Positions 38,318-61,745 of a stretch of 64,000 nucleotides of DNA are shown here, piece after piece. Position numbers and translations under genes: made by a program. Within the stretch, counting starts at the first letter, position 1, and every line of letters starts with the position of its first letter. The stretch spans positions 7,068,001-7,132,000 of the forward strand of contig NZ_CP109131.1 in the NCBI RefSeq assembly GCF_035917995.1, in the 5' to 3' direction. Under the pieces are notes generated by a model. That model was given only the letters and a program-made list of their open reading frames with translations. It had not been told where the DNA came from and searched no databases. Origin of the DNA: Streptosporangium sp. NBC_01755 (GTDB taxonomy: Bacteria > Actinomycetota > Actinomycetes > Streptosporangiales > Streptosporangiaceae).

Positions 38318-38331
38318 CTAATATAAATTAA
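38318..38331. promoter_or_regulatory. TetR-type operator candidate, site A
   Basis: CTAAT-ATAA-ATTAA, 27 bp before the CitE remnant and the MaoC gene it precedes. One of eight YTAAT-N4-ATTAR dyads in the catabolic island. Confidence 0.65.
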
Positions 38332-38358
38332 GCAAGGACGTGGAGGCAGAGCCGCGCC

Positions 38359-38517
38359 GTGTTCACCCCGGGTGAGGACGAGGTCGCCCAGGCTCGCGCG
38401 GTGCTCGGCGCGTTGCGGGAGACCGGGGCGGGCGCCGTGGAACCGGACGGAAAGATGATCGACGAAGCGGTGGCGGCCAGGCGGGTCCTGACGCGAGCAG
38501 AGGGAGCGAACCGATGA
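38359..38517 (+). pseudogene. C-terminal remnant of a CitE/HpcH-type CoA-ester lyase
   Basis: Fifty-two codons from a GTG read VFTPGEDEVAQARAVLGA, then GAVEPDGKMIDEAVAARRVL. This is the C-terminal helix and lid of citrate-lyase beta/malyl-CoA lyase-like proteins, which normally span about 270-320 residues. The catalytic barrel is missing. The stop overlaps the MaoC start (ATGA), so the ancestral citE-maoC coupling survives. A short translated product is possible, but no enzyme activity is expected. Confidence 0.7.
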
Positions 38518-39521
38518 CGGTGACCGTGGAAGGCCCGTACTTTGACGAGCTGACGGTCGGGCAGGTGTTCGACGGCGCGCCCGGAGTCACCCTCACCGCC
38601 GGGCATGCCGCGGCACACCAGGCGATCGTCGGTGACCGGCTCAGGCTCCCCCTCGACGCCGATCTCTGCCGGGACGTCACGAAAGGGGAGCCGCCGGCCC
38701 ATCCGGCGCTGGTCTGGGACGTGGCGATCGGCCAGTCCACCCTGGTCACCCACCACGTCAAGGCGAACCTGTTCTACCGGGGCCTGGTCTTCCGCCGGAT
38801 GCCCCTGCTCGGCGACACCCTGCGCACCTCCACACAGGTGGTGGCGCTGCGCCAGAACCGGGCGAAGCCGGGCCGCCGGCCGACCGGGCTGGCGGTGCTC
38901 CGGATCACCACCGTGGACCAGGCCGGACGCCCGGTGCTGGACTTCTGGCGCTGCGCGATGCTGCCGCTGCGCGACCCCGAGGCGCTGACCGGTCACCAGG
39001 CCGATCTCGACTCGGTGGGCGTGGCCGTCACCGACGAGGACCTCGCCGAGACGGTGACCGGGATGCTGGCGGGCTGGCGGCTAGACCGCTTCAGGGAACG
39101 GGTCGCGGGCCGGCACTTCGCCGGCGTCGCCGAGGGCGAGAGGCTTCGGGTGGGTGGGGGAGACGTGGTGTCCGGTGCTCCGGAACTGGCCAGGCTCACC
39201 CTCAACGTGGCGCAGGTGCATCACGACGTGCGGGCCGCGGCCGAGCGGCGGCTGGTGTACGGCGGGCACACCGTCGGCCTCGCGCTGTCCCAGGCCAGCC
39301 GGGCACTGCCGAACCTGGTCACGGTCGTGGCCTGGGACGGCTGCGACCACGTCGGCCCGGTCCACGAGGGCGACACGCTCTCCAGCGAGGTGGTGGTCGA
39401 GCGCCGCCAGGCGCTGCCGGGAGGCGGCGGGCTGGTCCGTCTCCGCTCGCTCGTCCAGGTGGTGGGCGGTGACGGGCCGCGGGACGTCCTTGACTGGCGT
39501 TACGTCGCGGTCATGGCGTAG
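38514..39521 (+). CDS. MaoC-like double-hotdog enoyl-CoA hydratase
   Basis: A 335-residue protein with two hotdog halves (~1-165 and ~175-335), as in mesaconyl-CoA hydratases and (R)-specific hydratase 2 types. The first half contains VTKGEPPAHPALVWDVAIGQST and the second VHHDVRAAAERRLVYGGHTVGLALSQASR, resembling the hydratase motif. The ATG overlaps the CitE remnant. It probably hydrates a branched or dicarboxylic enoyl-CoA; the lost lyase would have cleaved the product. Confidence 0.85.
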   Translation: MTVTVEGPYFDELTVGQVFDGAPGVTLTAGHAAAHQAIVGDRLRLPLDADLCRDVTKGEPPAHPALVWDVAIGQSTLVTHHVKANLFYRGLVFRRMPLLGDTLRTSTQVVALRQNRAKPGRRPTGLAVLRITTVDQAGRPVLDFWRCAMLPLRDPEALTGHQADLDSVGVAVTDEDLAETVTGMLAGWRLDRFRERVAGRHFAGVAEGERLRVGGGDVVSGAPELARLTLNVAQVHHDVRAAAERRLVYGGHTVGLALSQASRALPNLVTVVAWDGCDHVGPVHEGDTLSSEVVVERRQALPGGGGLVRLRSLVQVVGGDGPRDVLDWRYVAVMA

Positions 39522-39632: not shown

Positions 39633-39639
39633 GGGAAAC

Positions 39640-40806
39640 CTAGGTCCTGTCCTTCGCGTCGTCGGTGGGGACCTGCACCGCCGCTCCGGACTCGATCAGG
39701 GCCGCGGCGTCGACGCCCCAGGCGCCGAGCACCTCCACGGTGTGCCGGCCCGGCACCGGAGGGGGTGTGCCGAGGGCGGTGGGGGTCAGGGAGAAGCGGG
39801 GCGCGGGCGCGGGTTGCAGCAGCCCGTCGTGCTCCACGATGGAGCCGCGCGCTCTGATGTGCGGATGGTTCGCGGCTTCGCGCAGGCTCACCACCGGTGC
39901 CACGCAGGCGTCGGACTCGGCGAAGATCGCCGACCACTCGGCCTGGCTCCGGTCGGCGAAGGCGGCCGCGATCCGGGCACGCAACTCGGGCCAGCGGCTC
40001 CGATCGTGCTGCTTGCGGGGGTCCTCGTCGAGGCCGAGTCCGGCGAGCAACTCGACGTAGAACTTGGGCTCAAGGGCACCGACGGCCATGTGCCGGCCGT
40101 CGGAGGTCTCGTACACGGAGTAGAACGGCGCGCCGCCGTCAAGGAGGTTGGCGCCGCGCTCGTCCGTCCAGGCGCCGGTGGCCATGATCATGTGCGTTCC
40201 GGCCAGCAGGTGCGCGGTGCCGTCGACGATCGCGGCGTCGACGACCTGACCGCGCCCGGTGCGGTCCGCCTCGCGCAACGCGGCGAGCACTCCGATCACG
40301 AGGTAGTTGCCGCCCCCGCCGAAGTCACCGAGCAGGTTGAGCGGGATCTGCGGCGGCCCGCCCGCCTCGCCGATGGCGTGCAGGGCGCCGGTCAGCGCGA
40401 TGTAGCCGATGTCGTGACCCGCCGTCTGTGCCAACGGGCCGTCCTGTCCCCAACCGGTCATCCGGCCGTACACCAGCCGGGGATTGCGCGCGTGGCAGAC
40501 GTCGGGGCCCAGCCCCAGTCGCTCGGCGACCCCCGGCCGGTACCCCTCGATCAGCACGTCGGCCTCGGCGGCCATGGCCAGTACGGCCTCCACCGCCTGT
40601 GGCTGTTTGAGATCGAGGAGGATGGACTTCTTGCCCCGGTTCAGCAGATCGAGTTGTTCGGCTCCGGGGAAGAACCCGCTGCCTCCCGGCCGGTCGACGC
40701 GCACGACCTCGGCCCCCAGGTCGGCCAGCGCCATCCCGGCGAACGGGGCCGGCCCGATCCCGGCGAGTTCCAGTACTTTGACTCCGGACAGTGGCCCGCC
40801 ACTCAT
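39640..40806 (-). CDS. CaiB/BaiF family, alpha-methylacyl-CoA racemase-like
   Basis: A 388-residue family III CoA-transferase fold. GHDIGYIALTGALHAIG contains His131, and LLGDFGGGGNYL contains Asp161. Their 30-residue spacing equals that of the catalytic His126/Asp156 pair in mycobacterial MCR, so an epimerase of 2-methylacyl-CoA or 2-arylpropionyl-CoA is more likely than a transferase. The ATG at 40806 has GGAG 5 nt upstream. It is expressed alone from site B. Confidence 0.87.
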   Translation of the reverse strand: MSGGPLSGVKVLELAGIGPAPFAGMALADLGAEVVRVDRPGGSGFFPGAEQLDLLNRGKKSILLDLKQPQAVEAVLAMAAEADVLIEGYRPGVAERLGLGPDVCHARNPRLVYGRMTGWGQDGPLAQTAGHDIGYIALTGALHAIGEAGGPPQIPLNLLGDFGGGGNYLVIGVLAALREADRTGRGQVVDAAIVDGTAHLLAGTHMIMATGAWTDERGANLLDGGAPFYSVYETSDGRHMAVGALEPKFYVELLAGLGLDEDPRKQHDRSRWPELRARIAAAFADRSQAEWSAIFAESDACVAPVVSLREAANHPHIRARGSIVEHDGLLQPAPAPRFSLTPTALGTPPPVPGRHTVEVLGAWGVDAAALIESGAAVQVPTDDAKDRT

Positions 40807-40830
40807 CACGACTCCAGGTGATCATGCAGA

Positions 40831-40856
40831 TATTATCTAATCAATATTAGATAATA
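40831..40856. promoter_or_regulatory. TetR-type operator candidate, site B (extended perfect dyad)
   Basis: Core CTAAT-CAAT-ATTAG at 40837-40850. The symmetry extends to 11-bp arms (TATTATCTAAT and complement), making this the most perfect of the eight sites. It lies about 25 bp upstream of the racemase-like gene. Confidence 0.75.
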
Positions 40857-40887: not shown

Positions 40888-41586
40888 TCAGGAGGTGCGC
40901 TGAGTCGGATTCCGCCGGGGGCGGGGGGTGGTTTCCTCGGTTGGCTGGTCCGGCGGTGTGGTGCTGAGGCCGTGGCGGATGAGGGACTGGGCGGTGCGGA
41001 CGACGGCTTCGAAGGTGTCGCGTTTGGGGTTCCACCATTCGGCGGCCCAGTTGAGGGCGCCGACGACGAGGAGGTGGGCGACGCGCAGGTCGAGGTCGGG
41101 GCGGAGCTGGCCGGCGTTGTCGAGGGCGCGGAAGAGGTCGCGCCAGAGTTTGCCGTATCCGGCCTCTTCGGCGAGTTGGCGGGTGCGGAGGTCTTCGGGG
41201 ATCTGGCCGGAGTTGCGGATCAGGGCGGTGGCGAAGTCGGAGAGTTCGAGTTCGACGTGCAGGTGGGCTTCGACGGCGGCGCAGATGCGGTCCATCGGGG
41301 TGGTGTCGGCGGGGAGTGCGTCGAGGACCTGGGTGACGTGTTGGCGGACGCGTTGGGCGCCGGTCCACATGACCTCTTCGATCAGTTCTTCGCGGGATCC
41401 GAAGTAGTAGTAGATCGCCGGTGCCTGGAGCTGTGCCTGGTCGGCGATGTCACCGAGTCGTGTCCCTGAGTAGCCCTTACGGCTGAGGACGTGCGCCGCC
41501 GCGTCGAGAATCCGCTCGCGGGTACGGCTGGACTTCGGGCCGGCGCCGTCTTTCGAGACGGACCTGTTTCTGGCTTTACTGGGCAC
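40888..41586 (-). CDS. TetR-family regulator, probable controller of the catabolic island
   Basis: A ~232-residue TetR protein. The HTH (RERILDAAAHVLSRKGYSGT, RLGDIADQAQLQAPAIYYYF) is followed by a ligand domain of the KstR/AcrR type and a Pro/Thr-rich tail. The start is placed at GTG 41586; a TTG at 41668-41670 overlapping the upstream stop is an alternative. It is the second gene of a unit starting at site C, so it is probably autoregulated. It is the only regulator gene between 38 and 64 kb and the natural candidate for binding YTAAT-N4-ATTAR. Confidence 0.88.
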   Translation of the reverse strand: MPSKARNRSVSKDGAGPKSSRTRERILDAAAHVLSRKGYSGTRLGDIADQAQLQAPAIYYYFGSREELIEEVMWTGAQRVRQHVTQVLDALPADTTPMDRICAAVEAHLHVELELSDFATALIRNSGQIPEDLRTRQLAEEAGYGKLWRDLFRALDNAGQLRPDLDLRVAHLLVVGALNWAAEWWNPKRDTFEAVVRTAQSLIRHGLSTTPPDQPTEETTPRPRRNPTQRTS

Positions 41587-41666: not shown

Positions 41667-42824
41667 TCAAAGATCCAGACCTCCCCTGCTGACGAGCTGT
41701 GCCGCGATGACGTTGCGCTGGATCTCGTTGGTGCCCTCGCCGACGATCATGAGCGGGGCGTCGCGGAAGTAGCGTTCGACGTCGAACTCGGTGGAGTAGC
41801 CGTATCCGCCGTGGATGCGCACGGCGTTGAGCGCGATCTCCATCGCGGTTTCCGAGGCGAAGAGCTTGGCCATGCCGGCTTCCAGGTCACAGCGCTGCCC
41901 GGTGTCGGCGCGCTCGGCGGCGTGCAGGACCAGCTGGCGCGCCGCGGTGAGCTTGGTGGCCATGTCCGCGAGGTAGTTGCCGATGGACTGGTGCTTCCAG
42001 ATCGGCTTGCCGAAGCTCTCGCGCTCCTGGGCGTAGCGCAGGGCGTCCTCGAACGCGGCCCGGCCCACACCGAGGGCGCGGGAGGCGACCTGGATGCGGC
42101 CGGTCTCCAGCCCCTTCATCATCTGCGCGAACCCGCGGCCCTCGACGCCGCCGAGCACCGCGGAGGCGGGGGCGCGGTAGCCGTCGAAGGAGAGCTCGCA
42201 GCTCTCCACGCCCTTGTAGCCGAGCTTGGGCAGGTCACGGGAGACGGTGAGGCCGGGCCCGTGCTCGACGAGCAGGATGCTCATGCCGCTGTGCGCGGGT
42301 TTCGCGGCCGGGTCGGTCTTGCAGAGCAGCGCGATGAGCTGGGAGCGGCGGGAGTTGGTGATCCAGGTCTTGGCGCCGTTGACCACGTACCCGTCGCCCT
42401 CTCGCCGGGCGACGGTGGTCATGGCCTGCAGGTCGGAGCCGCCGACCGGCTCGGTGAGCGCCATCGTGGCGCGGACCTCGCCGGTGGCCATCCGGGGCAG
42501 GTAGTGTTGCCGCTGCTCCTCGGTGCCGAAGGTGGCGATGAGCTTCGCGACCACCGTGTGGCCGCCCATGGCCCCGGCCAGGCTCATCCAGCCGCGGGCG
42601 AGCTCCTCGGTGACCATGACGTAACAGGCGGTGGAGACCAGCACGTCGCCGTAGGGTTCGGGGACGGCGAGCCCGAAGATGCCGAGCTGCTTCATCTGCT
42701 CGATCAGTCTCTCCGGATACTCGTTGGCGTGCTCCAGTTCGCGGACGACGGGCCGGACCTCCCGGTCGACGAACTCCCGTACGGTCGCCACGACCGCCTG
42801 CTCCTCCTCGGACAGCGCTGTCAC
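41667..42824 (-). CDS. Acyl-CoA dehydrogenase
   Basis: A 385-residue flavoprotein. FAD/substrate motifs are MALTEPVGGSDLQAM and TWITNS, then ESFGKPIWKHQSI. The catalytic Glu lies in GEGTNEIQRNVIA at the short/medium-chain position. It oxidises an acyl-CoA to the 2-enoyl-CoA and passes electrons to ETF. GTG start with AGGA 7 nt upstream. First gene of the unit from site C, followed by the TetR gene. Confidence 0.93.
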   Translation of the reverse strand: MTALSEEEQAVVATVREFVDREVRPVVRELEHANEYPERLIEQMKQLGIFGLAVPEPYGDVLVSTACYVMVTEELARGWMSLAGAMGGHTVVAKLIATFGTEEQRQHYLPRMATGEVRATMALTEPVGGSDLQAMTTVARREGDGYVVNGAKTWITNSRRSQLIALLCKTDPAAKPAHSGMSILLVEHGPGLTVSRDLPKLGYKGVESCELSFDGYRAPASAVLGGVEGRGFAQMMKGLETGRIQVASRALGVGRAAFEDALRYAQERESFGKPIWKHQSIGNYLADMATKLTAARQLVLHAAERADTGQRCDLEAGMAKLFASETAMEIALNAVRIHGGYGYSTEFDVERYFRDAPLMIVGEGTNEIQRNVIAAQLVSRGGLDL

Positions 42825-42884: not shown

Positions 42885-42898
42885 TTAATATAGATTAA
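42885..42898. promoter_or_regulatory. TetR-type operator candidate, site C
   Basis: TTAAT-ATAG-ATTAA, 60 bp upstream of the acyl-CoA dehydrogenase/TetR unit. Confidence 0.65.
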
Positions 42899-42991: not shown

Positions 42992-44146
42992 CTATGGCCG
43001 TGCCGCGAGGTCCCGGCCGATGATCTCCTTCATGATCTCGGTGGTGCCACCGTAGATGGTCTGGACCCGGGTGTCGACGAAGGCCCGGGCGACCGGGTAC
43101 TCCAGCATGTAGCCGTAACCGCCGTGCAACTGCAGGCACTGGTCGACGACGCGCTTCTGCAGCTCGCTGATCCACCACTTTCCCTTGGCCGCGTCCACGG
43201 CCGTCAGCTCTCCCGCGTTGTAGGCGAGCACGCACTTGTCGGTGTAGGCCTCGGCGATGTCCAGCTCGGTGGCCATCTCCGCCAGCGCGAAGCGGGTGGC
43301 CTGGAAGTCGCCGATCCGCTTGCCGAAGGCCTCTCGCTGGAAGCAGTATTCCCTGGTCATCTCGTAGACGGCCCGGGCGCCCGTGATGGACTGTGCGATG
43401 ATCCCCAGCCGTTCACGGGCCAGATGGCTCATCAGGTACCGCAGCCCTTGTCCCTCGACGCCCAGCAGGTTGGCATCCGGCACCCGGACGTCCTCGAAGA
43501 ACAGCTCCGCGGTGTCCTGGCCATGCAAGCCGATCTTTTCGAGCCTGCGGCCTCGGGTAAAGCCGGGCATCCCGTCCTCGACCACGAACAGGCTGAACCG
43601 ACGCGAGCCCCCCTCCGGGTCGGTCCGGGCGGCGACGATCACCAGGTCCGCGGTGATGCCGCTGCTGATGAACGTCTTCTGCCCGGTGAGCACCCAGGAG
43701 TCACCGTCGCGGCGGGCGGAGGTCCGAATGCCCTGCAGGTCGCTGCCGGTGCCCGGCTCGGTCATCGCCAGCGCGCCGATCACGTCGCCACCGGCGAACC
43801 CGGGCAGCCAGCGCCGCTTCTGCTCCTCGGTGGTGAGGTCAAGCAGGTAGTGCAGGACCAGGTCGTCCTGGAGCCCCAGGGTGACGGTAAAGGTCGTCGC
43901 CTGGGCTCGGGCCACCTCCTCGCACACCACCATGCGGTAGCGGTAGTCGCTCACCCCGGCGCCGCCGTACTCCTCGGGGACCTCCAGGCCTGCGATGCCC
44001 TGCGCACGGGCGGCGGCGAGAACCCTCCGATCGATGCTGTGCTCCTCCTCCCACCGGAGGTAGTGGGGGATCACCTCGCGGGCCAGGAACTCCCGTACGG
44101 TCTGCCGGTACTGCTCGTGGTCGTCGGTGTAGAGATCGCGTCGCAT
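42992..44146 (-). CDS. Acyl-CoA dehydrogenase, long-chain/isovaleryl type
   Basis: A 384-residue flavoprotein. MTEPGTGSDLQGI and TFISSG are present. The C-terminal motif is YGGTTEIMKEIIGRDL, with Gly where short-chain enzymes have the catalytic Glu. The base is expected on helix G (VYEMTREYCFQREAFGKR), as in LCAD and isovaleryl-CoA dehydrogenases. It follows the thiolase gene by 2 bp. Probably acts on a branched or bulky acyl-CoA. Confidence 0.92.
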   Translation of the reverse strand: MRRDLYTDDHEQYRQTVREFLAREVIPHYLRWEEEHSIDRRVLAAARAQGIAGLEVPEEYGGAGVSDYRYRMVVCEEVARAQATTFTVTLGLQDDLVLHYLLDLTTEEQKRRWLPGFAGGDVIGALAMTEPGTGSDLQGIRTSARRDGDSWVLTGQKTFISSGITADLVIVAARTDPEGGSRRFSLFVVEDGMPGFTRGRRLEKIGLHGQDTAELFFEDVRVPDANLLGVEGQGLRYLMSHLARERLGIIAQSITGARAVYEMTREYCFQREAFGKRIGDFQATRFALAEMATELDIAEAYTDKCVLAYNAGELTAVDAAKGKWWISELQKRVVDQCLQLHGGYGYMLEYPVARAFVDTRVQTIYGGTTEIMKEIIGRDLAARP

Positions 44147-44148
44147 CC

Positions 44149-45303
44149 TCAGCCCAGCCGTTCGATGACGGTGACGTTGGCCTGGCCACCGCCCTCGCAC
44201 ATGGTCTGCAGACCGTACCGGCCGCCGGTGCGCTCCAGCTCGTGCAGCAGCGTGGTCATGATGCGGGCGCCGGATGCGCCGATCGGGTGGCCCAGAGCGA
44301 TGGCGCCGCCGTTGACGTTCACCCGTGCGGGATCGGCGCCGATGTGCTTCTGCCAGGCCAGCACCACGCTGGCGAACGCCTCGTTGACCTCGGCCAGGTC
44401 GATGTCGCCGATGGTGAGGCCGGCCTTGCTCAGCGCGTGCTCGGTGGCGGGAAGTGGGGCGACCAGCAGATTCACCGGGCTGGCGCCGCGCACTGCCAGG
44501 TGGTGGATCCGGGCTCGGGGCACGAGACCGTAGGCGCGGACGGCCCGCTCGGAGGCGATCAGCAGTGCTGCGGAGGCGTCGGAGATCTGGCTGGAGACCG
44601 CCGCGGTCAAGCGGCCGCCGTCGGTCAGGGGCTTGAGCCCGGCCATCTTCTCCAGCGAGGTGTCCGCGCGAGGGCCCTCGTCGTGCTCGACGCCCTCGTA
44701 CACCAGGATCTCGCGGTCGAAGCGGCCCTCCTGACGGGCCGTGAGGGCGCGCCGGTGGCTCTCGAGGGCGAACTCCTCCATGTCCTGGCGGGAGAAGCCC
44801 CATTCCTCCGCGATCATCTCGGCGCTGCGGAACTGGGAGATCTCCTGGTTGCCGTAACGCTCCTCCCAGCCCTTGCAGCCGGTCCACGGGTCGACCGCGC
44901 CGTACGGCTCGCCGACGGTGAACGACGACAGGAGGGGGTACTGGCTCATCTGCTGCACGCCGCCGGCGATGATCAGGTCCGAGGTGCCGCTCATCACCGC
45001 CTGGGCGGCGAAGTGCACGGCCTGCTGCGACGATCCGCACTGCCGGTCGATGGTCACGCCGGGAACCGACTCGGGCAGCCCGGCGGCGAGCGCCGCGGTG
45101 CGGGCGATGTCGCCGGCCTGCCCGCCGATGGCGTCCAGGCAGCCGTACACGACGTCGTCGATCGTCTCCGGGTCGATGTCGTTGCGCTCCACCAGGGCGC
45201 GGATCGGTGCGGCGCCCAGGTCGGCGGGGTGGACGGCGGCGAATCCGCCGCGGCGCCGGCCGGTGGCGGTCCTGACGGCGTCGACTATGTAGGCCTCGGG
45301 CAT
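44149..45303 (-). CDS. Acetyl-CoA C-acyltransferase (thiolase)
   Basis: A 384-residue thiolase. The nucleophilic Cys is in DRQCGSSQQAVHFAA, then NEAFASV, GHPIGASGAR, and the second Cys in MCEGGGQANV. It cleaves 3-ketoacyl-CoA. It lies between the SDR and the long-chain-type dehydrogenase in the minus unit that starts at site D. Confidence 0.93.
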   Translation of the reverse strand: MPEAYIVDAVRTATGRRRGGFAAVHPADLGAAPIRALVERNDIDPETIDDVVYGCLDAIGGQAGDIARTAALAAGLPESVPGVTIDRQCGSSQQAVHFAAQAVMSGTSDLIIAGGVQQMSQYPLLSSFTVGEPYGAVDPWTGCKGWEERYGNQEISQFRSAEMIAEEWGFSRQDMEEFALESHRRALTARQEGRFDREILVYEGVEHDEGPRADTSLEKMAGLKPLTDGGRLTAAVSSQISDASAALLIASERAVRAYGLVPRARIHHLAVRGASPVNLLVAPLPATEHALSKAGLTIGDIDLAEVNEAFASVVLAWQKHIGADPARVNVNGGAIALGHPIGASGARIMTTLLHELERTGGRYGLQTMCEGGGQANVTVIERLG

Positions 45304-46271: not shown

Positions 46272-46285
46272 TTAATCTATATTAG
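46272..46285. promoter_or_regulatory. TetR-type operator candidate, site D (divergent promoter)
   Basis: TTAAT-CTAT-ATTAG between the divergent SDR (minus) and MaoC (plus) genes, 42 bp before the latter. Confidence 0.68.
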
Positions 46286-46327: not shown

Positions 46328-46780
46328 ATGAGGATCTTCAACGGTCTCGACGAGCTCGTCGGCGCGAGTGGTGAGGTGCTGGGCACCAGCGGCTGGATCA
46401 CCGTCGAGCAGGAGCGTGTCGACGGGTTCGCCGACGCCACCGATGACCATCAGTGGATTCACGTCGACGTGGAGAGGGCCAAGGACGGACCCTTCGGAAA
46501 GACGATCGCGCACGGATTCCTCACGCTGTCGCTGCTTCCGGTGTTCTTCCAGCAGATCTACCGGGTCGACGGCCTCCGGATGGCGGTCAACTACGGCCTG
46601 AACAAGGTGCGCTTCCCGGCGCCGGTCCCGGTGGGCTCCAAGCTCCGGGCGACCTCGCGGCTGGTGGAGGTCACCCCGCTGGACGGTGCGACCCAGATCG
46701 TGCTGTCCACCACCATCGAGGCCGAGGGTGTCGGGAAGCCGGTATGCGTGGCCGAGTCGGTCGTGAGGTACTTCGCGTGA
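46328..46780 (+). CDS. MaoC-like enoyl-CoA hydratase (NodN type)
   Basis: A 150-residue single hotdog protein. The hydratase signature is DDHQWIHVDVERAKDGPFGKTIAHGFLTLSLLP, with Asp/His active residues. GAGGAGGGAAT precedes the ATG at 46328. It hydrates 2-enoyl-CoA to (R)-3-hydroxyacyl-CoA. It overlaps the following SDR by 4 bp (GTGA), suggesting consecutive steps. Confidence 0.92.
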   Translation: MRIFNGLDELVGASGEVLGTSGWITVEQERVDGFADATDDHQWIHVDVERAKDGPFGKTIAHGFLTLSLLPVFFQQIYRVDGLRMAVNYGLNKVRFPAPVPVGSKLRATSRLVEVTPLDGATQIVLSTTIEAEGVGKPVCVAESVVRYFA

Positions 46781-48346: not shown

Positions 48347-48347
48347 G

Positions 48348-50310: not shown

Positions 50311-50329
50311 AAAACTGAGGGTGGGGAAC

Positions 50330-53003: not shown

Positions 53004-53017
53004 CTAATTAATATTAA
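53004..53017. promoter_or_regulatory. TetR-type operator candidate, site G
   Basis: CTAAT-TAAT-ATTAA, 21 bp before the second ligase, the first gene of the nine-gene Rieske/thiolase operon. Confidence 0.7.
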
Positions 53018-53038: not shown

Positions 53039-54736
53039 GTGATCCCGAGCGTCGAAGAGCGTCGTGCGCGGCTGAGTGAGCGTTTCCCCGAGTGGACGCC
53101 GCTCACCCTTGACGGTCGACTGGAGCGCTGCGCGCAGGAGTTCGGCGACCGTCCCCTCGTGCTGACCGACGAGCGGACCCTCGGCTACGCCGAGGCCGCC
53201 GAGTGGTCGGCGCGGCTGGCGGACGGGCTGGCGGCGCTCGGGGTCCGGCCGGGCGACCGGGTCGGTCTGCTGATGGCCAACTACCTGGAGTTCGTCCCGC
53301 TGAAGTTCGCGATCGCCAAGGCCGGCGCGGTCGCCATCCCCTTCAACTACCTGTACCGGCAGGATGAGCTCGCCTACGTCCTGGCCCAGTCCGAGTGCAA
53401 CGTGCTGATCACCATGACCGGTTTCGCCGGGCTGGACTATCTGGACATGCTCGACGCCGTCGCCCCCGGCTGGGAGCGCGAAGGCGGCGAGACGCTGCCG
53501 GAGCTGCGCCAGGTCGTGCTGCTCCCCACCGACGGGCGGACCCGCGAGGGGGTGCTGACCGTGGACGGCCTCGGCGAGCTGGGCGCGGGCGCACCCGGCG
53601 CGGCCGCACCCGGAACGCGGACCCCCGACGATCTCGGGGACATCCTCTACACCTCGGGCACCACCGGCTCGCCCAAGGGGGTGATGGTAACCCACGACGC
53701 GGTGCAGCGCACCGCCTACGCCTCCGCGCTGAGCAGGGCCTTCGAGGACGGCCGGCGCATCCTGTTCTCGCTGCCCTGCTACCACATGTTCGGCTACGTC
53801 GAGGGCCTGCTCGCGGCCATGATGGTGGGCGGGGCGATCATCCCGCAGACCGCGTTCAGCCCGGCCGGCTACTTCGAGGGGATCGAGCGCCACCGGGCCA
53901 CCGAGATCCTGTGCGTGCCGACCATGACCGTCGCGCTGCTCGAGCACCCCGACCGGCTCACCCGTGACCTGTCCTCGCTGTTCGCCATGCTGTCCGGTGC
54001 CGCGCCCTCGCCGATCTGGCTCTGGGAGCGGGTCCGCGCCGAGCTCGGCGTCACCGAGCTGGTCACCGGCTACGGCATGACCGAGTGCGGTGGGGCGATG
54101 ACGATGTCCCTGCCCGAGGACCCGCTGGAGCGCGCCTCCGCCACCGTCGGCCGGCCCAAGCTCGCCGGCGTCGCCGGGCTCCCCGGCGACGTCTGCGTCT
54201 ACCGGACCGTCGACCCGGTGACGGGGGAGTTCCTGCCGGCCGGCACCGAGGGCGAACTCGTCTCCACCGGGCCGACGCACATGCTGGGCTTCTGGAACAA
54301 GCCCGAGGAGAGCGCGCTCGCCCTGCGGGACGGCTGGGTGTACTCGGGTGACCTCGGCATCGTCCGAGAGGACGGCTACCTGGTGCTCACCGGCCGCAGC
54401 AAGGAGCTCTACAAGAGCGGTGGCGAGCTGGTGATGCCCAAGGAGATCGAGGATCTGCTCACCGCGCGGCCGGGGATCAGCCAGGCGTACGCGATCGGCG
54501 TGCCCGACGACAGGTGGGGCGAGACCGGCTGCGTCTGGATCGTTCCAGAGCCGGGAGCGAAGCTCGACGCGGACGAGATCATCGCGTTCTGCAAGGAGAA
54601 CCTGGCCCGTTTCAAGGTGCCCAAGCACGTGCTCTTCGCGGAGCCGTCGGAGCTGCCGACCACGCCGACCGGAAAAATCCAGAAATTTCGGCTTGTTCAG
54701 CAGGCCAAGGCACGTATTGAAGGAGGGAAATCGTGA
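53039..54736 (+). CDS. Acyl-CoA synthetase (AMP-dependent ligase) 2
   Basis: A 565-residue ligase. YTSGTTGSPKGVM, YGMTECGG, YSGDLG, GRSKELYKSGGELVMPKEIE and the Lys in TPTGKIQKF are present. The GTG start follows AGGAGG. It is the first gene of the operon with the Rieske oxygenase and overlaps its alpha subunit by 4 bp. It probably makes the CoA thioester on which the oxygenase acts, the arrangement known from ipfF and phenylacetate systems. Confidence 0.94.
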   Translation: MIPSVEERRARLSERFPEWTPLTLDGRLERCAQEFGDRPLVLTDERTLGYAEAAEWSARLADGLAALGVRPGDRVGLLMANYLEFVPLKFAIAKAGAVAIPFNYLYRQDELAYVLAQSECNVLITMTGFAGLDYLDMLDAVAPGWEREGGETLPELRQVVLLPTDGRTREGVLTVDGLGELGAGAPGAAAPGTRTPDDLGDILYTSGTTGSPKGVMVTHDAVQRTAYASALSRAFEDGRRILFSLPCYHMFGYVEGLLAAMMVGGAIIPQTAFSPAGYFEGIERHRATEILCVPTMTVALLEHPDRLTRDLSSLFAMLSGAAPSPIWLWERVRAELGVTELVTGYGMTECGGAMTMSLPEDPLERASATVGRPKLAGVAGLPGDVCVYRTVDPVTGEFLPAGTEGELVSTGPTHMLGFWNKPEESALALRDGWVYSGDLGIVREDGYLVLTGRSKELYKSGGELVMPKEIEDLLTARPGISQAYAIGVPDDRWGETGCVWIVPEPGAKLDADEIIAFCKENLARFKVPKHVLFAEPSELPTTPTGKIQKFRLVQQAKARIEGGKS

Positions 54737-55983
54737 CCGTCCAGTACTCGGAGCTGATCCAGCCCGAGAGGGTGCACGGTTCGCTGTACACCGACCCGAG
54801 CATCTTCGCGGAAGAGCTCGAACGGATCTGGTACCGCACCTGGGTGTGCGTCGGGCACGTGAGCGAGGTGGCGCGGCCCGGCGACTACGTGCGCAAGAAC
54901 GTCGCCGCCCAGGACGTCATCATGACCAGGAGCGCGGACGGCGAGGTCGGCCTGCTGCTCAACCGGTGCGCGCACCGGGGCAACCTGGTCTGCGAGGACC
55001 GGCGGGGCAACTCCAGCTCGTTTCGCTGCCCCTACCACGGCTGGACCTACCGCAACACCGGTGAGCTGCTCGGCTACCCCTACAACCAGGGGTACGGCGG
55101 TAAGAACAAGCTCGAACTCGGTCTCGGCCGGGTGCCCCGGGTGGACATCTACCAGGGCTTCGTGTTCGCCAGCTTCGCCGCCGAGGGGCCGACCCTGAAG
55201 GAGCACCTCGGCGCCGCGGCGGGCGAGCTGGACCGGCTGGCCAGGCTCTCCCCGGAGGGAGAGGTCGAGCTCACCGCCGGCTGGCTCAGGCACCGTGCCA
55301 AGGCGAACTGGAAGCTGCTGGTCGAGAACGAGACCGACGGCTACCACCCGCAGTTCGTGCACGGCTCGGTGTTCAGCGTCACCGGCAGCCCCATCGGAGC
55401 CCTCTACAGCGACAAGTCGACAGCCGTCACCCGTGACCTCGGCGGCGGCCACAGCGAGAACGACCTGCGCCCGGAGTTCCGCAGGGCCGCCCGCCCCATG
55501 GGCTGGTTCGGCACCTCCGAGGCCAGGGTCCCCGACTACGTGGCGAAGATGCGCGCGCTCCACGGCGAGCAGGCCGAGGAGATCCTCATCGAGGGCGCGC
55601 CGCACGTCATGGTCTTCCCCAACCTGTTCATCGCCGAGATCAGCGTTTTCACGATCCAGCCGACGGCGGTCGACGAGACCGTGCAGAACGTCACCGCGGT
55701 GCAGCTCAAGGGCGCCCCGGAGATGAACCGCAGGCTGCTCTCGCAGTGCGTCGGCTCGGTCGGCCCCGCGGGCATGCTGCTGGCCGACGACTCGGAGATG
55801 TACGAGCGCAACCAGCGCGGCATGGCCGCCCGGCGGCCCGAATGGCTCGACATCCGCCGCGGCGTGGGCCGCGAGCGCATCGACGAGAACGGTTTCCGGA
55901 TCGGCGCCGCCAACGACGAGACCGGGATGCGCGGCTTCTGGGCGCACTACCGGGGCCTGATGGAGGAGGGGGCCGCGCAGTGA
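54733..55983 (+). CDS. Rieske non-haem iron oxygenase, alpha subunit
   Basis: A 416-residue ring-hydroxylating oxygenase alpha subunit. The Rieske ligands are Cys79-His81 (CAHR) and Cys99-His102 (CPYHGW). The mononuclear iron site is Glu200-x-Asp202-x-x-His205-x4-His210 (ENETDGYHPQFVH). The catalytic domain spans ~180-416. GTG start overlaps the ligase. It needs a reductase and ferredoxin, which are not encoded nearby. Coupled to the beta subunit by GTGA overlap. Confidence 0.94.
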   Translation: MTVQYSELIQPERVHGSLYTDPSIFAEELERIWYRTWVCVGHVSEVARPGDYVRKNVAAQDVIMTRSADGEVGLLLNRCAHRGNLVCEDRRGNSSSFRCPYHGWTYRNTGELLGYPYNQGYGGKNKLELGLGRVPRVDIYQGFVFASFAAEGPTLKEHLGAAAGELDRLARLSPEGEVELTAGWLRHRAKANWKLLVENETDGYHPQFVHGSVFSVTGSPIGALYSDKSTAVTRDLGGGHSENDLRPEFRRAARPMGWFGTSEARVPDYVAKMRALHGEQAEEILIEGAPHVMVFPNLFIAEISVFTIQPTAVDETVQNVTAVQLKGAPEMNRRLLSQCVGSVGPAGMLLADDSEMYERNQRGMAARRPEWLDIRRGVGRERIDENGFRIGAANDETGMRGFWAHYRGLMEEGAAQ

Positions 55984-56456
55984 GCAGTCTGGAACCCGGT
56001 GAGATCGAGCGCTTCCTCTATCGCGAGGCACGGCTCGCCGACGAGCACGACTACGACGGATGGGAGGCCCTGTGGACCGACGACGCGCTCTACTGGGTGC
56101 CCGCCGGAGGCCCCGACGTGGACCCCGAGTCGCAGATGTCGGTCATCTACGACAACCGCAGCCGCATCAGGACGCGAATCAGCCAGCTCAAGACGGGTAA
56201 GCGCTACTCCCAGTCGCCGCCGTCGAACATGCGGCGGCTGATCTCCAACGTCGAGGTGGTCGCGGTCGAGGGGACCGACACCGTGGCCGAGGCGAACTTC
56301 GTGCTCGTCGAGTCCCGCGAGCGGGGGACCACCCTGTGGTCGGGCCGCGCCACCTACCGGCTGCGCCGCGTCGAGGACGACATCCGGCTGGCCTACAAGA
56401 AGGTGGTCCTGGTGAACAGCGCGGAGGCGCTTTCCACCCTGGCCTTCCTCATCTGA
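55980..56456 (+). CDS. Rieske oxygenase, beta subunit
   Basis: A 158-residue small subunit of the aromatic dioxygenase beta/NTF2-like fold. IERFLYREARLADEHDYDGWEALWTDDALYWVP is the typical N-terminus, followed by RTRISQLKTGKRYSQSPPSNMRRLISNV. It stabilises the alpha3beta3 oxygenase. GTG start overlaps the alpha stop by 4 bp. Presence of a true beta subunit indicates a dioxygenase-type enzyme rather than a KshA-type monooxygenase. Confidence 0.92.
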   Translation: MSSLEPGEIERFLYREARLADEHDYDGWEALWTDDALYWVPAGGPDVDPESQMSVIYDNRSRIRTRISQLKTGKRYSQSPPSNMRRLISNVEVVAVEGTDTVAEANFVLVESRERGTTLWSGRATYRLRRVEDDIRLAYKKVVLVNSAEALSTLAFLI

Positions 56457-56468: not shown

Positions 56469-56690
56469 GTGGATCAGTGGATCATCGCCAGCGAGTTCGC
56501 CGAGGTGGCCGTGAGCCTCGACACCGACGCCAACGGGCCGCGGCTGCGCGTCGAGGACCTGCGCGGCGGCCGGGTGCGCTACCTGGACGCGCTGGAACTG
56601 GAGTCCGTCGTCTGGCTCTCCGATGAGCGGGTGCGCGAGTTGCTGGACCCCTCGGCCGGTCGCTGGAGCGACAGGCCCGCCGATGGCTGA
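56469..56690 (+). CDS. Small conserved-type protein of the Rieske operon
   Basis: A 73-residue protein (NEFAEV-like start ASEFAEVAVSLDTD, then LRVEDLRGGRVRYLDALELESVVWL). AAGGAG precedes the GTG. Similar small proteins near actinobacterial Rieske oxygenases are, as I recall, sometimes labelled dihydrodiol dehydrogenase, but it has no Rossmann motif and is too short for that activity. It overlaps the CoA-transferase gene by 8 bp. The role is unknown; an oxygenase accessory subunit is a possibility. Confidence 0.75.
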   Translation: MDQWIIASEFAEVAVSLDTDANGPRLRVEDLRGGRVRYLDALELESVVWLSDERVRELLDPSAGRWSDRPADG

Positions 56691-57936
56691 GATCCTCGAA
56701 AGAGCCGGTCGGCTGGACCTGGTGGCCCACATCCGGCCCGGTGACGCGGTCATCTGGGGACAGGCCTGCGCCGAGCCGCTCACCCTGACCGAGCGGCTCA
56801 TCGAGCAGCGTGCCGAGATCGGCGGCCTCCGGTGCTTCCTCGGACTGCCCGCCTCGGACACGATCCGCCCGGAGCACGCCGACCACCTGTCGTTCCTTTC
56901 CTACTGCGGTGGCGGCGGTAACCGTGCGCTGCACCGGGCCGGCGTCCTGGACATCCTGCCGTGTCACTACTCGACACTGCCGGATCTCATCGAGAGCGGG
57001 GCCCTTCCCGTCGACGTCGCCCTGGTCCAGCTCTCGCCCGCGGACGGCGCCGGGCGCCACAGCCTCGGCATGGCCGACGACTACCTGTCCGCCGCGATCG
57101 ACAGGGCCCGCGTGGTCATCGCGGAGGTGAACGACCAGGTGCCCTGGACGCACGGGACGCGCACGCTGACCGCCGCCGACCTGGACGTGATCGTGTTCAC
57201 CTCCCGGCCGCCCGCCGAGATCGTCAAGAGTGTGCCCGGTGACGCGGAGGAGCGTGTCGCCGGGCACGTCGCCGGCCTGATCGAGGACGGTGCGACCCTG
57301 CAGCTCGGGCTTGGCGCCCTGCCCGAGGCGATCGTCGCCCGGCTGGCCGACCGCCGTGACCTCGGTGTCCACTCCGGCCAGATCGGGGACGCCGTCGCCG
57401 ACCTGATGGAGGCCGGAGTGATCACGGGCGCCCGCAAGACCGTCGGCCGGGGCCGTACGGTCACCGGAACGCTGATGGGAACGTCGCGGTTGTTCCGTTA
57501 TGCCGACGGCAATCCGGCGATCGAGCTGCGCGACACCCGCCACACCCACGACCCCGAGGTGCTCGCGGCTCAGGAGCGCCTCGTCGCGATCAACTCGGCG
57601 ATCGAGGTCGACCTGTCCGGTCAGATCAACGCCGAGGTCGCGCGCGGCTCGTATGTCGGCGCCGTCGGAGGTGCGATCGACTTCCTGCGCGGGGCGGCCC
57701 GCTCCCGGGGCGGCCTGCCCATCGTGGCGCTGACCTCCACCGCGAAGAGCGCCAGCCGGATCGTGGCGAACCTGAGGGGGCCGGTCAGCACGTCCCGCGC
57801 CGACGCCGGGATCATCGTCACCGAGTACGGAGTGGCCGACCTGCGCGGGCTGTCCCTGGAGGAGCGGCGCGCCCGGATGCTCGCCATCGCCCACCCCGAC
57901 CATCGCACCGCGCTTGAGAAGGAGAGCTGTCCATGA
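56683..57936 (+). CDS. Acetyl-CoA hydrolase/transferase family CoA-transferase
   Basis: A 417-residue protein of the 4-hydroxybutyrate/acetate CoA-transferase family (two halves). GLGALPEAIVARLADRRDLGVHSGQIGDAV and SADGAGRHSLG-like turns are typical, and VTEYGVADLRGLSLEERRARMLAIAHPDHR closes the C-terminal domain. It moves CoA between acids, here probably recycling CoA from a cleaved acetyl- or propionyl-CoA to the incoming acid. Overlaps the thiolase by 4 bp. Confidence 0.87.
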   Translation: MAEILERAGRLDLVAHIRPGDAVIWGQACAEPLTLTERLIEQRAEIGGLRCFLGLPASDTIRPEHADHLSFLSYCGGGGNRALHRAGVLDILPCHYSTLPDLIESGALPVDVALVQLSPADGAGRHSLGMADDYLSAAIDRARVVIAEVNDQVPWTHGTRTLTAADLDVIVFTSRPPAEIVKSVPGDAEERVAGHVAGLIEDGATLQLGLGALPEAIVARLADRRDLGVHSGQIGDAVADLMEAGVITGARKTVGRGRTVTGTLMGTSRLFRYADGNPAIELRDTRHTHDPEVLAAQERLVAINSAIEVDLSGQINAEVARGSYVGAVGGAIDFLRGAARSRGGLPIVALTSTAKSASRIVANLRGPVSTSRADAGIIVTEYGVADLRGLSLEERRARMLAIAHPDHRTALEKESCP

Positions 57937-59144
57937 GAAGAGCCGCGATCGTCGCCCCGGTCCGCACGCCGGTCGGTGCCTTCGGCGGAACCCTGCGCCC
58001 GGTGCCGGTGGAGGATCTGGCCGCCACGGTCATCAGGGCCGTCGTCGAGCGCTCGGGCATCGACCCCGAGCGGATCGAGGACGTGGCGATGGCCCAGTCC
58101 TACGCCAACTCCGAGACGCCGTGCGTGGGCCGCTGGGCCGCCCTGCACGCGGGCCTGCCGGTCGCCGTCCCCGGCTTCCAGATCGACCGGCGCTGCGGCG
58201 GCGGGCTGCAGGCCGTGGTCACCGCCGCGATGATGGTGCAGACCGGAGCCGCCGACGTGGTGGTGGCCGGCGGCGTGGAGAGCATGAGCAACGTCGAGCA
58301 CTACTCCACCCAGGTCCGCTGGGGCAGCCGCTCCGGCGGTGTGCGGTTGCACGACCGGCTGGACCGGGGCCGTGAGCGGTCCCAGCCCGAAGGGCGCTTC
58401 GGCCGGATCTCCGGGATGATCGAGACGGCCGAGAACATCGCCCGCCGGTACGGGATCACCCGCGAGGTGGCCGACGACTACGCCGCGGGCAGCCACCGCC
58501 GGGCCGCCGCGGCCTGGGAGGCCGGAGCCTTCGACGACGAGATCGTCGGAGTCCAGGTGCCGGTGCGGCGCGGCGATCCGGTCATGTTCGAGCGCGACGA
58601 GGGCATCCGCCCGGACAGCACCCCCGAGACGCTGGCCGGGCTGCGGACCCTGATGCCGGGCGGGACCGTGACCGCGGGCAACTCCAGCCAGCAGAACGAC
58701 GCCGCCGCGGCCTGCCTGGTGGTGGCCGAGGACAGGCTGGACGAGCTCGGGCTGGAGCCGCTGGGATTCCTGGTCGGCTGGGCGGCGGCCGGCTGCGAAC
58801 CGGCCACCATGGGACTCGGCCCGGTGCCGGCCGTGGCCAGGCTGTTCGCCGCGACCGGCGTGACGTTCGACGACATCGACCTGGTGGAGCTGAACGAGGC
58901 GTTCGCCTGCCAGGTGCTCGGCGTCGTCAAGGGCTGGGGGTTCTCCGGCCCGGCCGAGCTGAGCGACCGGCTGAACGTCAACGGCTCCGGCATCTCGCTC
59001 GGGCACCCGATCGCCGCGACCGGGGTGCGCATGCTCACCACGATGCTGCACGAGCTGCGCCGGAGGGGTGGCGGGTACGGCCTGGAGACCATGTGCGTCG
59101 GCGGCGGCCAGGGCATGGCCGCCCTCTTCGAGGGAGTCTCGTGA
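57933..59144 (+). CDS. Acetyl-CoA C-acyltransferase (thiolase)
   Basis: A 403-residue thiolase. The nucleophilic Cys is in DRRCGGGLQAV, followed by NEAFACQV, GHPIAATGVR, and the second Cys in MCVGGGQGMA. All three catalytic elements are present. It overlaps both neighbours by 4 bp. It cleaves a 3-ketoacyl-CoA of the pathway, distinct from the thiolase at 44149. Confidence 0.93.
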   Translation: MRRAAIVAPVRTPVGAFGGTLRPVPVEDLAATVIRAVVERSGIDPERIEDVAMAQSYANSETPCVGRWAALHAGLPVAVPGFQIDRRCGGGLQAVVTAAMMVQTGAADVVVAGGVESMSNVEHYSTQVRWGSRSGGVRLHDRLDRGRERSQPEGRFGRISGMIETAENIARRYGITREVADDYAAGSHRRAAAAWEAGAFDDEIVGVQVPVRRGDPVMFERDEGIRPDSTPETLAGLRTLMPGGTVTAGNSSQQNDAAAACLVVAEDRLDELGLEPLGFLVGWAAAGCEPATMGLGPVPAVARLFAATGVTFDDIDLVELNEAFACQVLGVVKGWGFSGPAELSDRLNVNGSGISLGHPIAATGVRMLTTMLHELRRRGGGYGLETMCVGGGQGMAALFEGVS

Positions 59145-60523
59145 ACACGCCGAAGGGGATCGTGGCGTACGCCACCTACCTGCCCAGGCACCGGCTGCGG
59201 CACGCGGACCTGGGCGCCGCGCTGGGCACCGGGGGCGGCACCGGATCACGGGTGGCCGCCTCGTTCGACGAGGACAGCACCACCCTGGGGATCGAGGCCG
59301 CGCGACGGCTGCCGCGCGGGGGAGAACGGCCCGGGGCGATCTTCTTCGCCACCACCTCGCCCGCCTACCTCGACAAGACCAACGCCGCGGCCGTGCACGC
59401 GGCCCTCGGCCTGGGCGCCGACGGCTTCGCGGTGGACCTGGCCGGGTCGGCGCGGTCCGGCACCGGCGCGCTGCTCGCCGCCGCCGCGAGCGGGGGCCTG
59501 GCCGTACTCGCCGACGTGCGGACCGGCCTGCCGGGCTCGGCCGACGAGCGCGACGGGGCCGACGGGGCCGCGGCGTTCCTGTTCGGCGACCCCGATGAGG
59601 CGATCGCCGAGATCGTGGCCCGGGTGTCGGTGACCGCGGAGTTCCTTGACCGCTGGCGCACGCCGGACGAGCCGGCCGCCCGCCGCTGGGAGGAGCGTTT
59701 CGGGCTGGAGAGCTACCTGCCGCTGGTGACGGAGGCAGGACGGCGGGCCCTCGCGGAGGCGGACGTCGCCGTCCCCGACCACGTGGTGCTCTCCTCGCCG
59801 AACCCGCTGGTGGCCAGGCGGGGGGCCGCGCTGTTCCCCGCGCGGGTTCCGGCGGGAAGGACGCCGGGTCACGCGGGCGCGGCGGACGTCGGGCTGAGCC
59901 TGGCGGAGGTCCTGGACCGGGCGGCGCCGGGCGAGACCGTCCTGCTGCTCGCCGCCGTGGACGGCTGCGACGCGCTGGTGCTGCGGGCCACCGACCGCAT
60001 CGAGGGCGGGCGCCAGGCCCACCCGATCTCGGCGCAGCTCGCCGCCGGGCGAGATGTCTCGTACACCGCCTATCTCACCTGGCGCGGCCTGCTGGACCGG
60101 GAGGCGCCCCGGCGACCGGAACCCGAGGTGGCCGCGGGGCCGCCCTCGGCCCGGTCGCAGGCCTGGAAGTTCGCGTTCACCGGGTCGCGGTGCCGCGGCT
60201 GCGGTTTCGTCCACCTGCCCCCGGCGCGGGTCTGCAAGGGCTGCGGAGCCGTGGACGAGATGGAGCCGCGCCCGCTGTCGGGCGTGCGGGGCACGGTCGT
60301 CACCTTCACGGCCGACCGGCTGGCGTACTCTCCCTCGCCGCCGCTGATCGACGTCGTGGTCGACTTCGACGGCGGCGGGCGGTACACGATGGAGCTGGCC
60401 GACGCCGCCCCGGACGAGGTGGAGATCGGGATGCGGGTGGAGACGACGTTCCGCAGGCTCCACACGACCCAGGGAGTGCACAACTACTTCTGGAAGGCAC
60501 GGCCCGTGGAGGACGAGCGATGA
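59141..60523 (+). CDS. 3-ketoacyl-synthase/HMG-CoA-synthase-like protein fused to a DUF35 zinc-ribbon/OB domain
   Basis: A 460-residue two-part protein. Residues ~1-320 follow the HMG-CoA synthase/KAS III fold, but the nucleophile region reads AGSARSGTGALLAA, with Ala where the catalytic Cys should be. Residues ~345-460 are a DUF35 domain: the zinc ribbon CRGCG ... CKGCG and an OB fold (GTVVTFTADRLAY). DUF35 proteins act as partners of SCP-x/Ltp-type thiolases or aldolases; the partner here is the next gene (ATGA overlap). GTG start. Confidence 0.87.
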   Translation: MNTPKGIVAYATYLPRHRLRHADLGAALGTGGGTGSRVAASFDEDSTTLGIEAARRLPRGGERPGAIFFATTSPAYLDKTNAAAVHAALGLGADGFAVDLAGSARSGTGALLAAAASGGLAVLADVRTGLPGSADERDGADGAAAFLFGDPDEAIAEIVARVSVTAEFLDRWRTPDEPAARRWEERFGLESYLPLVTEAGRRALAEADVAVPDHVVLSSPNPLVARRGAALFPARVPAGRTPGHAGAADVGLSLAEVLDRAAPGETVLLLAAVDGCDALVLRATDRIEGGRQAHPISAQLAAGRDVSYTAYLTWRGLLDREAPRRPEPEVAAGPPSARSQAWKFAFTGSRCRGCGFVHLPPARVCKGCGAVDEMEPRPLSGVRGTVVTFTADRLAYSPSPPLIDVVVDFDGGGRYTMELADAAPDEVEIGMRVETTFRRLHTTQGVHNYFWKARPVEDER

Positions 60524-61713
60524 GCGCAAGGGGAATCAAGGACCGGGTCGCGATCGTGGCCATGGGGTGCACCAGGTTCGGCGAGCACTGGACCTCCTCC
60601 ACCGACGATCTGCTGATCGACGCCGTGCGGGAGTGCATGACCGCGGTACCGGGCACGGACCTGGCGGATGTGGAGGCGTTCTGGCTCGGCACGCTCGGCT
60701 CGGGGCAGTCCGGCCTCACCCTCAGCCGCGCGCTCGCCCTGGACTACCGGCCGGTCACCCGGGTGGAGAACTACTGCGCGACCGGTTCGGAGGCATTCCG
60801 CAACGCCTGCTACGCGGTGGCGTCCGGAGCCTACGACCGGGTCATGGCGGTCGGGGTGGAGAAGCTCAAGGACTCGGGTTTCTCCGGGCTGACCCGGATG
60901 GACCCGCCGGGAGACGGCACGGCCGCGGAGAACACCCTCACCGCACCGGCCGCCTTCTCGCTGCTCGACCCGGCCTACTGCGCGAGGTACGGCGTCGACC
61001 CCGCGGGGATGCGGGCGGCCATGACCCATGTGGCCTGGAAGAACCACGCCAACGGGGCGCTCAACCCCAAGGCGCAGTACCGTGCCCAGGTGTCCAAGGA
61101 GAAGATCGCCGCGGCGCCGCTGGTGGCCGGGCGACTCGGGGTGTTCGACTGCTCGGGGGTCTCCGACGGCGCCGCCTGCGCACTGATCGTCCGTGCCGAG
61201 GACGCCCACCTCTACACCGACCACCCGGTGTATGTGAAGGCATTGGCGCTGACGGCGGCGCCGGGACGCGCGGCGATGGATCCCGGCTACGACTACACGA
61301 CCTTTCCCGAAGTGGTGCGGAGCGCCCAGGACGCCTACCGGCAGGCCGGGGTCACCGATCCGCGCACCGAGATCTCGCTGGCCGAGGTGCACGACTGCTT
61401 CACGCCCACCGAGCTGGTGCTGATGGAGGACCTGGGCTTCGCCGAGTGTGGCGAGGCGTGGCGCGACGCCCTCGACGGCGCCTTCGAACTCGGCGGACGG
61501 CTGCCGGTCAACCCGGACGGCGGCCTGAAGTCCTTCGGCCACCCGGTCGGCGCGAGCGGGCTGCGGATGCTCTACGAGTGCTGGCTGCAGTTCCGCGGTG
61601 AGGCCGGGCGGCGGCAGTTGAGCGACCCCAGGCTCGCTCTCACCCACAACCTGGGCGGTCGCCCGGGCGGCTGTGTGTCCTTCGTCTCGGTGGTCGGTTC
61701 CGAGCTCGGCTGA
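60520..61713 (+). CDS. SCP-x-like thiolase (lipid-transfer protein type)
   Basis: A 397-residue thiolase-fold enzyme. The nucleophilic Cys is in ENYCATGSEAFRNA, followed by EVHDCFTPTE, FGHPVGASG, and the second Cys in LGGRPGGCVSFV, so the Cys-His-Cys set is complete, unlike Ltp2-type retroaldolases. With the DUF35 protein it parallels IpfD/IpfE, which split an acyl-CoA from a dearomatised ring. Last gene of the operon from site G. Confidence 0.9.
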   Translation: MSARGIKDRVAIVAMGCTRFGEHWTSSTDDLLIDAVRECMTAVPGTDLADVEAFWLGTLGSGQSGLTLSRALALDYRPVTRVENYCATGSEAFRNACYAVASGAYDRVMAVGVEKLKDSGFSGLTRMDPPGDGTAAENTLTAPAAFSLLDPAYCARYGVDPAGMRAAMTHVAWKNHANGALNPKAQYRAQVSKEKIAAAPLVAGRLGVFDCSGVSDGAACALIVRAEDAHLYTDHPVYVKALALTAAPGRAAMDPGYDYTTFPEVVRSAQDAYRQAGVTDPRTEISLAEVHDCFTPTELVLMEDLGFAECGEAWRDALDGAFELGGRLPVNPDGGLKSFGHPVGASGLRMLYECWLQFRGEAGRRQLSDPRLALTHNLGGRPGGCVSFVSVVGSELG

Positions 61714-61731
61714 TTGGCATCAGGACATTTT

Positions 61732-61745
61732 TTAGTTTAGATTAA
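61732..61745. promoter_or_regulatory. TetR-type operator candidate, site H
   Basis: TTAGT-TTAG-ATTAA, one mismatch from the consensus, 21 bp before the SnoaL-crotonase gene. Confidence 0.6.

Follow-up and report, generated by a model that had tools for sequence, protein, structure and literature searches.

AT-rich dyads recur through an island of catabolic genes in Streptosporangium sp. NBC_01755, and comparative sequence analysis indicates that they are most likely the operators of the TetR-family regulator encoded in that island, which would repress the window's 23 island genes, among them those of its own transcription unit. The window is the whole stretch of DNA analysed, 64,000 nucleotides long, and corresponds to positions 7068001-7132000 of an 8.15-Mb single-contig genome. 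A sequence-only reading of the window had proposed a single-regulator regulon of at least 20 genes with an autoregulated TetR; confinement of the dyads to the island, their occurrence in relatives and their presence in the promoters of TetR genes are consistent with that proposal.

The 23 genes run from 38.5 kb to beyond the window end, and nearly all are predicted to act in CoA-thioester catabolism. The left end, on the plus strand, consists of the last 52 codons of a CitE-like gene (38359-38517; no Pfam match), which we take to be CitE from its sequence features and which is 73% and 74% identical to the end of the full-length ORF in relatives G163 and G204, followed by a MaoC/mesaconyl-CoA-hydratase-like gene (38514-39521, PF19315). 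The minus strand then carries a CaiB-type CoA-transferase (39640-40809; NCBIfam matches below cut-off), the TetR-family regulator that is the proposed repressor (40888-41586; PF00440 and PF17932 above the gathering score), acyl-CoA dehydrogenase 1 in the TetR unit (ACAD1, 41667-42824; NCBIfam matches), acyl-CoA dehydrogenase 2 (42992-44152; Pfam), thiolase 1 (44149-45303; NF005865 above cut-off) and SDR 1 (45371-46168; NCBIfam SDR matches). On the plus strand lie MaoC-type dehydratase 2 (46328-46780, PF01575), SDR 2 (46801-47526, start approximate; identified by translation and conserved in relatives) and two enoyl-CoA hydratase genes (47591-49157), followed by a metallo-beta-lactamase-fold hydrolase on the minus strand (49204-50253, PF00753). 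The remainder is on the plus strand: enoyl-CoA hydratase 3 (50321-51130), acyl-CoA ligases 1 (51320-52966) and 2 (53039-54736), a ring-hydroxylating dioxygenase of the two-subunit Rieske type (54733-56456; alpha 54733-55983, beta 55980-56456; PF00355, PF00848, PF00866), a butyryl-CoA:acetate-type CoA-transferase (56623-57936; PF13336, PF02550), thiolase 2 (57933-59144; NF004853 above cut-off), an HMG-CoA-synthase-like protein fused to a DUF35/OB-fold (59138-60523), a lipid-transfer-protein-like thiolase (60520-61713, PF22691), a SnoaL/NTF2-like domain fused to an enoyl-CoA hydratase (NTF2-Ech4, 61755-62981; PF00378, PF12680) and acyl-CoA dehydrogenase 3 (62985-63998, ending 136 bases past the window; conserved). 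The run extends approximately 4.5 kb past the window with SDR, flavoprotein, ferredoxin-reductase-like and nitroreductase-like genes, and the TetR is, as first read, the only regulator found among the 23 genes of the window.

Two observations concern the island's surroundings. Just past its right end, the minus strand carries a gene resembling intradiol catechol dioxygenases (L050:4743-5645). Left of the island, a short minus-strand ORF (37564-38106) has a thermolysin-propeptide motif and, immediately before its start, a run of about 12 G's (38106-38120); it may be a gene that has been shortened or that varies in length.

Exact matches to YTAAT-N4-ATTAR occur at six places in the window, all in the island: site A (38318-38331, CTAATATAAATTAA; 29.1 bits, 27 bp before the CitE remnant), site B (40837-40850, CTAATCAATATTAG; 27 bp before the CaiB gene), site C (42885-42898, TTAATATAGATTAA; 60 bp before ACAD1), site D (46272-46285, TTAATCTATATTAG), site F (51233-51246, TTAATTTAGATTAG) and site G (53004-53017, CTAATTAATATTAA). 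Site H (61732-61745, TTAGTTTAGATTAA) has one mismatch, and the sole other one-mismatch match in the window, at 53008, overlaps site G. Eight dyads of 5-4-5 geometry had been listed originally. The eighth, site E (50297-50310, TGAAAATAAATTCA), departs from the pattern at 3 of the 10 specified positions and scores 13.9 bits vs 24.4-29.9 for the other seven, yet its register is kept in four relatives, two of which carry TGAAAATAAATTCA and two TGAAATTAGATTCA at this position. Sites D and E occupy the two divergent promoters, as claimed. The dyads had been placed 19-73 bp before starts; the measured distances are 9-103 bp, and site A is 182 bp from the first intact gene. A further correction concerns site A, which precedes only the CitE remnant and then the intact hydratase gene. 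Promoter-like -10 hexamers lie inside sites D (TATATT) and H (TAGATT), two found against 0.6 expected.

The scarcity of the dyad elsewhere is pronounced. Only 0.05 matches are expected in the window by chance (sd 0.22, 100 shuffles), and the earlier observation that none lies elsewhere in the window holds. Genome-wide, exact dyads occur at seven places, six of them in the island and the seventh at 7731516; the reversed pattern gives none. When one mismatch is allowed, the whole genome yields 39 places vs 34 for the reversed control, and the short pattern is not specific at that stringency. We regard the motif as first written as too short and too loose. A sequence-only covariance model spanning 26 positions was trained on 32 sites, of which 7 came from the window and 25 from other loci; it gave 11 matches in the whole genome, at seven distinct places that all fall within the island (E up to 10). 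These matches are individually weak (E-values from 0.04 to 2.9), and recovery of the window sites is expected since they belonged to the model; the informative result is that no other places were matched. The genome-wide matrix scan that had been suggested, carried out with this model, reports only the seven island sites. Chance occurrence was rejected because exact copies are so scarce in the window and in the genome and the model matches are confined to the island. An unbiased palindrome test with a mononucleotide null ranked GC-rich palindromes top and is uninformative either way on the dyad.

The island is syntenic in four relatives whose sites were not in the model (G163, G204, G096 and G098), and there every one of the model's 22 matches, at 13 places, fell within the corresponding island; in four congeners lacking the TetR gene it gave none. 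In each of the four syntenic relatives, dyads of at least 22 bits precede SDR1/MaoC2, acyl-CoA ligase 2 and the NTF2-Ech4 gene; ligase 1 has such a dyad in two of them and a weaker one of about 15 bits in the other two. None of the four has a site of at least 22 bits before ACAD1 or CaiB, and sites C and B are therefore not shared with them. Counterparts exist farther afield: Streptomyces and Amycolatopsis have a dyad before ACAD1-TetR, like site C, and S. canus has one between the TetR and CaiB genes, like site B. Across the 13 TetR-bearing relatives of the order we found 24 sites of at least 22 bits (reversed control, 0), none inside ORFs recognised by the 23 island proteins and 21 no more than 400 bp upstream of one. 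In 74 named loci there were 39 sites against 1 in the control, and strong sites occurred in 22 of the 33 loci with at least three other island genes vs 3 of the 41 with fewer. Locus L096, on the same contig as L132, is counted among the 74 but was excluded from the spacer test, the 42-site consensus and the 73-gene upstream count described below; L066 was omitted from alignment A2.

Promoters of the TetR genes themselves also carry the dyad, in G163, G204 and G342. Two Rhodococcus plasmids have their best site, of 29.9 bits, in the interval separating the TetR gene from a ferredoxin gene. Among 73 named TetR genes, 6 have a 20-bit site within 350 bp upstream (control 0) and 13 a 15-bit site (control 2). 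A Demequina locus has a weaker site (CTAATCTAGGTTAG) 46 bp before the matched start. G224 has the TetR gene, with no 10-bit site in 40 kb and no exact dyad genome-wide; homologous TetRs outside islands may control other regulons or use weaker sites.

Alignment of 42 distinct sites from named loci and plasmids (identical 24-mers merged) gave the consensus T-YTAAT-NTAN-ATTAR-A. Of the half-sites, 90% have the flanking T and 96% the T of the central TA. The sites were picked with the window-derived 14-bp matrix, and the core is partly built in, but the outer flank lies outside that matrix. The spacer had been described as a free N4; the TA at its centre, in 96% of half-sites of these 42 homologous sites and in 5 of the 7 window sites, speaks against that description, and the predicted operator is longer than the proposed 5-4-5. 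Many sites carry another copy of the half-site 5 bp outward. Among inverted half-sites in 73 loci, 14 have a spacing of N4 and 5 of N9, with 2 in total over the 19 other spacers tried. CTAAT-N4-ATTAG and TGAAT-N4-ATTCA are among the single-spacer spikes of this spacer-controlled test. Other spikes, AAGAA-N13-TTCTT, TCTAA-N6-TTAGA, TTTAA-N6-TTAAA and AAGAT-N13-ATCTT, outrank both; the two N13 palindromes are prominent at one spacer in the 73 named loci (L066-L139 less L096). The outward-repeated half-sites may accommodate a second dimer. Binding of a second dimer has been described for QacR and DarR.

The island TetR has a TetR_N helix-turn-helix (PF00440, 61.9 bits, cut-off 24), with the recognition helix QAPAIYYYF, five positions of which are invariant in 39 homologues. 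Its predicted fold (mean pLDDT 86) is nearest AibR, DarR, FadR and numerous further TetRs, which differ little in their closeness to it. This similarity allows a CoA ester as ligand and names none, nor does the TetR_C_24 domain. KstR2 is a weak match among 44 TetR chains (E 1.8e-9). The acyl-CoA-responsive KstR2, AibR and FadR are 18-21% identical to the island TetR, and the same scores are reached by DarR and other TetRs whose ligands are unrelated. The operators and regulons of KstR2, AibR and FadR are unlike those proposed for the island.

Of 344 other genomes of the order, 13 have homologues of the TetR (51-84% identity), and the gene is absent at E 1e-30 from all 15 other genomes of the genus; because the searches scored 8 candidates per genome for the TetR and 5 for the dioxygenase, misses are possible. 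The 13 TetR-bearing genomes contain 31 exact dyads, 19 of which share a contig with the TetR gene at a distance of no more than about 16 kb. The 13 exact dyads in the 15 congeners, vs 10 for the reversed pattern, are background. The TetR gene is present in 6 of the 7 other genomes with a dioxygenase of at least 75% identity, the seventh being a 74%-complete assembly; at the same cut-off the dioxygenase is missing from 7 of the 13 TetR-bearing genomes (8 candidates scored per genome for the TetR, 5 for the dioxygenase). Weighing against the TetR, strong sites track the island more closely than they do its gene, and homologous TetR genes outside such islands mostly lack one. The island TetR is the best candidate for the protein that binds the dyads, though not a proven one.

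These features suggest a mechanism. A TetR dimer would read T-YTAAT-NTAN-ATTAR-A, and half-sites 5 bp further out may hold a second. The predicted operators, 9-103 bp ahead of start codons, overlap a promoter-like -10 in two units, so that bound TetR would keep RNA polymerase off the promoters. One repressor would in this way shut 23 window genes, up to four more beyond the window and its own unit, ACAD1-TetR behind site C, which would make it autoregulatory. A CoA thioester produced by the ligases of the island would most likely bind the C-terminal domain of TetR and release it.

It is unlikely that a different regulator encoded elsewhere in the genome, a BkaR-type TetR or a further TetR reading a TAAT skeleton, binds the island dyads. 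The idea draws on the half-site and spacer of BkaR, which equal those of the island (accessible text of PMC3920632), on strong dyads tracking the island more than the island TetR gene, and on two TetR genes of the same genome. Just before the BkaR-type TetR gene at 500466 lies a BkaR-type operator at 500416 (L184:2417), and at 7731516 (L183:3516) an exact G-CTAAT-N4-ATTAG-C, probably the operator of another TetR, separates the gene of that TetR from an acyl-CoA dehydrogenase gene transcribed in the opposite direction. Against it, both dyads have G/C flanks vs mostly T/A in the island, and neither is reported by the 26-position island model; moreover, the TetR-gene promoters of relatives carry dyads. 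The pattern GTTANT-N4-ANTAAC occurs at a single genomic place, 500416, and nowhere in the island. The island TetR is 28% identical to the BkaR-type protein of its own genome and 26% to that beside BkaR-type dyads in M. neoaurum. On this low identity (26-28%) and the restriction of the operator to 500416, we rejected both BkaR as the dyad-binding protein and the island TetR as a BkaR. The recognition helices of the BkaR-type and 7731516 TetRs (SGPALYRHF and RGPSLYKHV, vs QAPAIYYYF) differ from that of the island protein, and we infer that recognition-helix residues set the flanking base.

Two congeners have a dyad, CTAATTTAGATTAG and its reverse complement (L180:3541 and L181:3499), between transporter genes that we take to be for iron uptake. 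The idea that the island dyads are iron boxes was rejected, these congener dyads having C/G flanks.

It is very unlikely that the island TetR binds the dyads as an activator or requires a CoA ester for binding: sequence does not show in which direction control runs, but the promoter-like -10 hexamers inside D and H (2 vs 0.6 expected) suit repression, and the fold relatives of the TetR are, in the accessible literature, described mostly as repressors. Highly improbable is the notion that the dyads are AT-rich core-promoter elements common to the island and not a regulator site, for although the dyad centre TANATT resembles a -10 hexamer, the dyads are rare genome-wide, prefer a spacer of 4 and have reversed-sequence controls at or near zero.

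Repression by the island TetR remains the preferred reading, and the relatives shed light on the island's history. G163 and G204 have a full-length CitE-like gene and, divergent from it across a dyad, a second TetR gene, and in G096 and G098 a dyad precedes the CitE-like gene; what the window retains is the dyad, as site A, and the last 52 CitE codons, and the second TetR gene is absent. The TetR and the dioxygenase are both absent from the 15 congeners (5 candidates scored per genome for the dioxygenase) and present on Rhodococcus and Pseudonocardia plasmids. This distribution suggests horizontal movement.

Candidate operators and a probable regulator can now be assigned to an island that occurs in Streptosporangiaceae, Streptomyces, Nocardia and Amycolatopsis as well as on Rhodococcus plasmids, and the ligand that releases TetR would name the island's substrate. 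Within a single genome, the island TetR and the BkaR-type TetR apparently read the same half-site in differing flanks, and they offer a natural pair for the study of recognition-helix specificity.

We found no published description of the island TetR or its operator in a search mostly of open literature, including the accessible text of PMC3920632, PMC4482099, PMC11596240 and PMC9195938. The predicted regulon is a familiar kind of control, well supported by the comparisons above. As described in the accessible text of PMC3920632, BkaR of mycobacteria (Rv2506/MSMEG_4718) binds GTTA(N)T(N4)A(N)TAAC and represses itself and a branched-chain keto-acid operon. The two systems have in common TTAAT-N4-ATTAA half-sites and spacer and neighbouring acyl-CoA genes; BkaR is an autoregulated TetR repressor with palindromic operators (PMC3920632), and the same roles are proposed for the island TetR. 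The BkaR operator has G/C flanks, the island sites mostly T/A.

The predicted enzymes resemble those of the ipf ligase/dioxygenase/retro-aldolase route, and a steroid regulon was set aside, the island dioxygenase being nearer benzoate and ipf types. According to the accessible text of PMC9195938, the ipf route converts ibuprofen to its CoA ester, which after dioxygenation and retro-aldolase action gives propionyl-CoA and 4-isobutylcatechol. An ibuprofen-type route in the island would likewise proceed through a CoA ester and ring dioxygenation to retro-aldol release of an acyl-CoA. The dioxygenase alpha subunit of plasmid pIBU218, taken to be ipfA from gene order and flanking IS6100 copies, is 43% identical to the island alpha. 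One might go further, tentatively, and see in the island a widespread, partly plasmid-borne actinobacterial ibuprofen-type route with its own acyl-CoA-sensing TetR, in which a ladder of TAAT half-sites at 5 bp holds two dimers and contains the -10, and the base flanking the half-site separates this TetR from BkaR-type TetRs of the same cell; taken as a whole, this seems possible but doubtful. In the ipfABDEF ibuprofen pathway of pIBU218, CoA ligase, two-subunit dioxygenase, thiolase-like and OB-fold genes are clustered as they are in the island (PMC9195938, accessible text). The island alone has an extra HMG-CoA-synthase-like domain and many beta-oxidation genes, and ipfA is reportedly unresponsive to ibuprofen (PMC9195938, accessible text), whereas a TetR regulon is proposed for the island.
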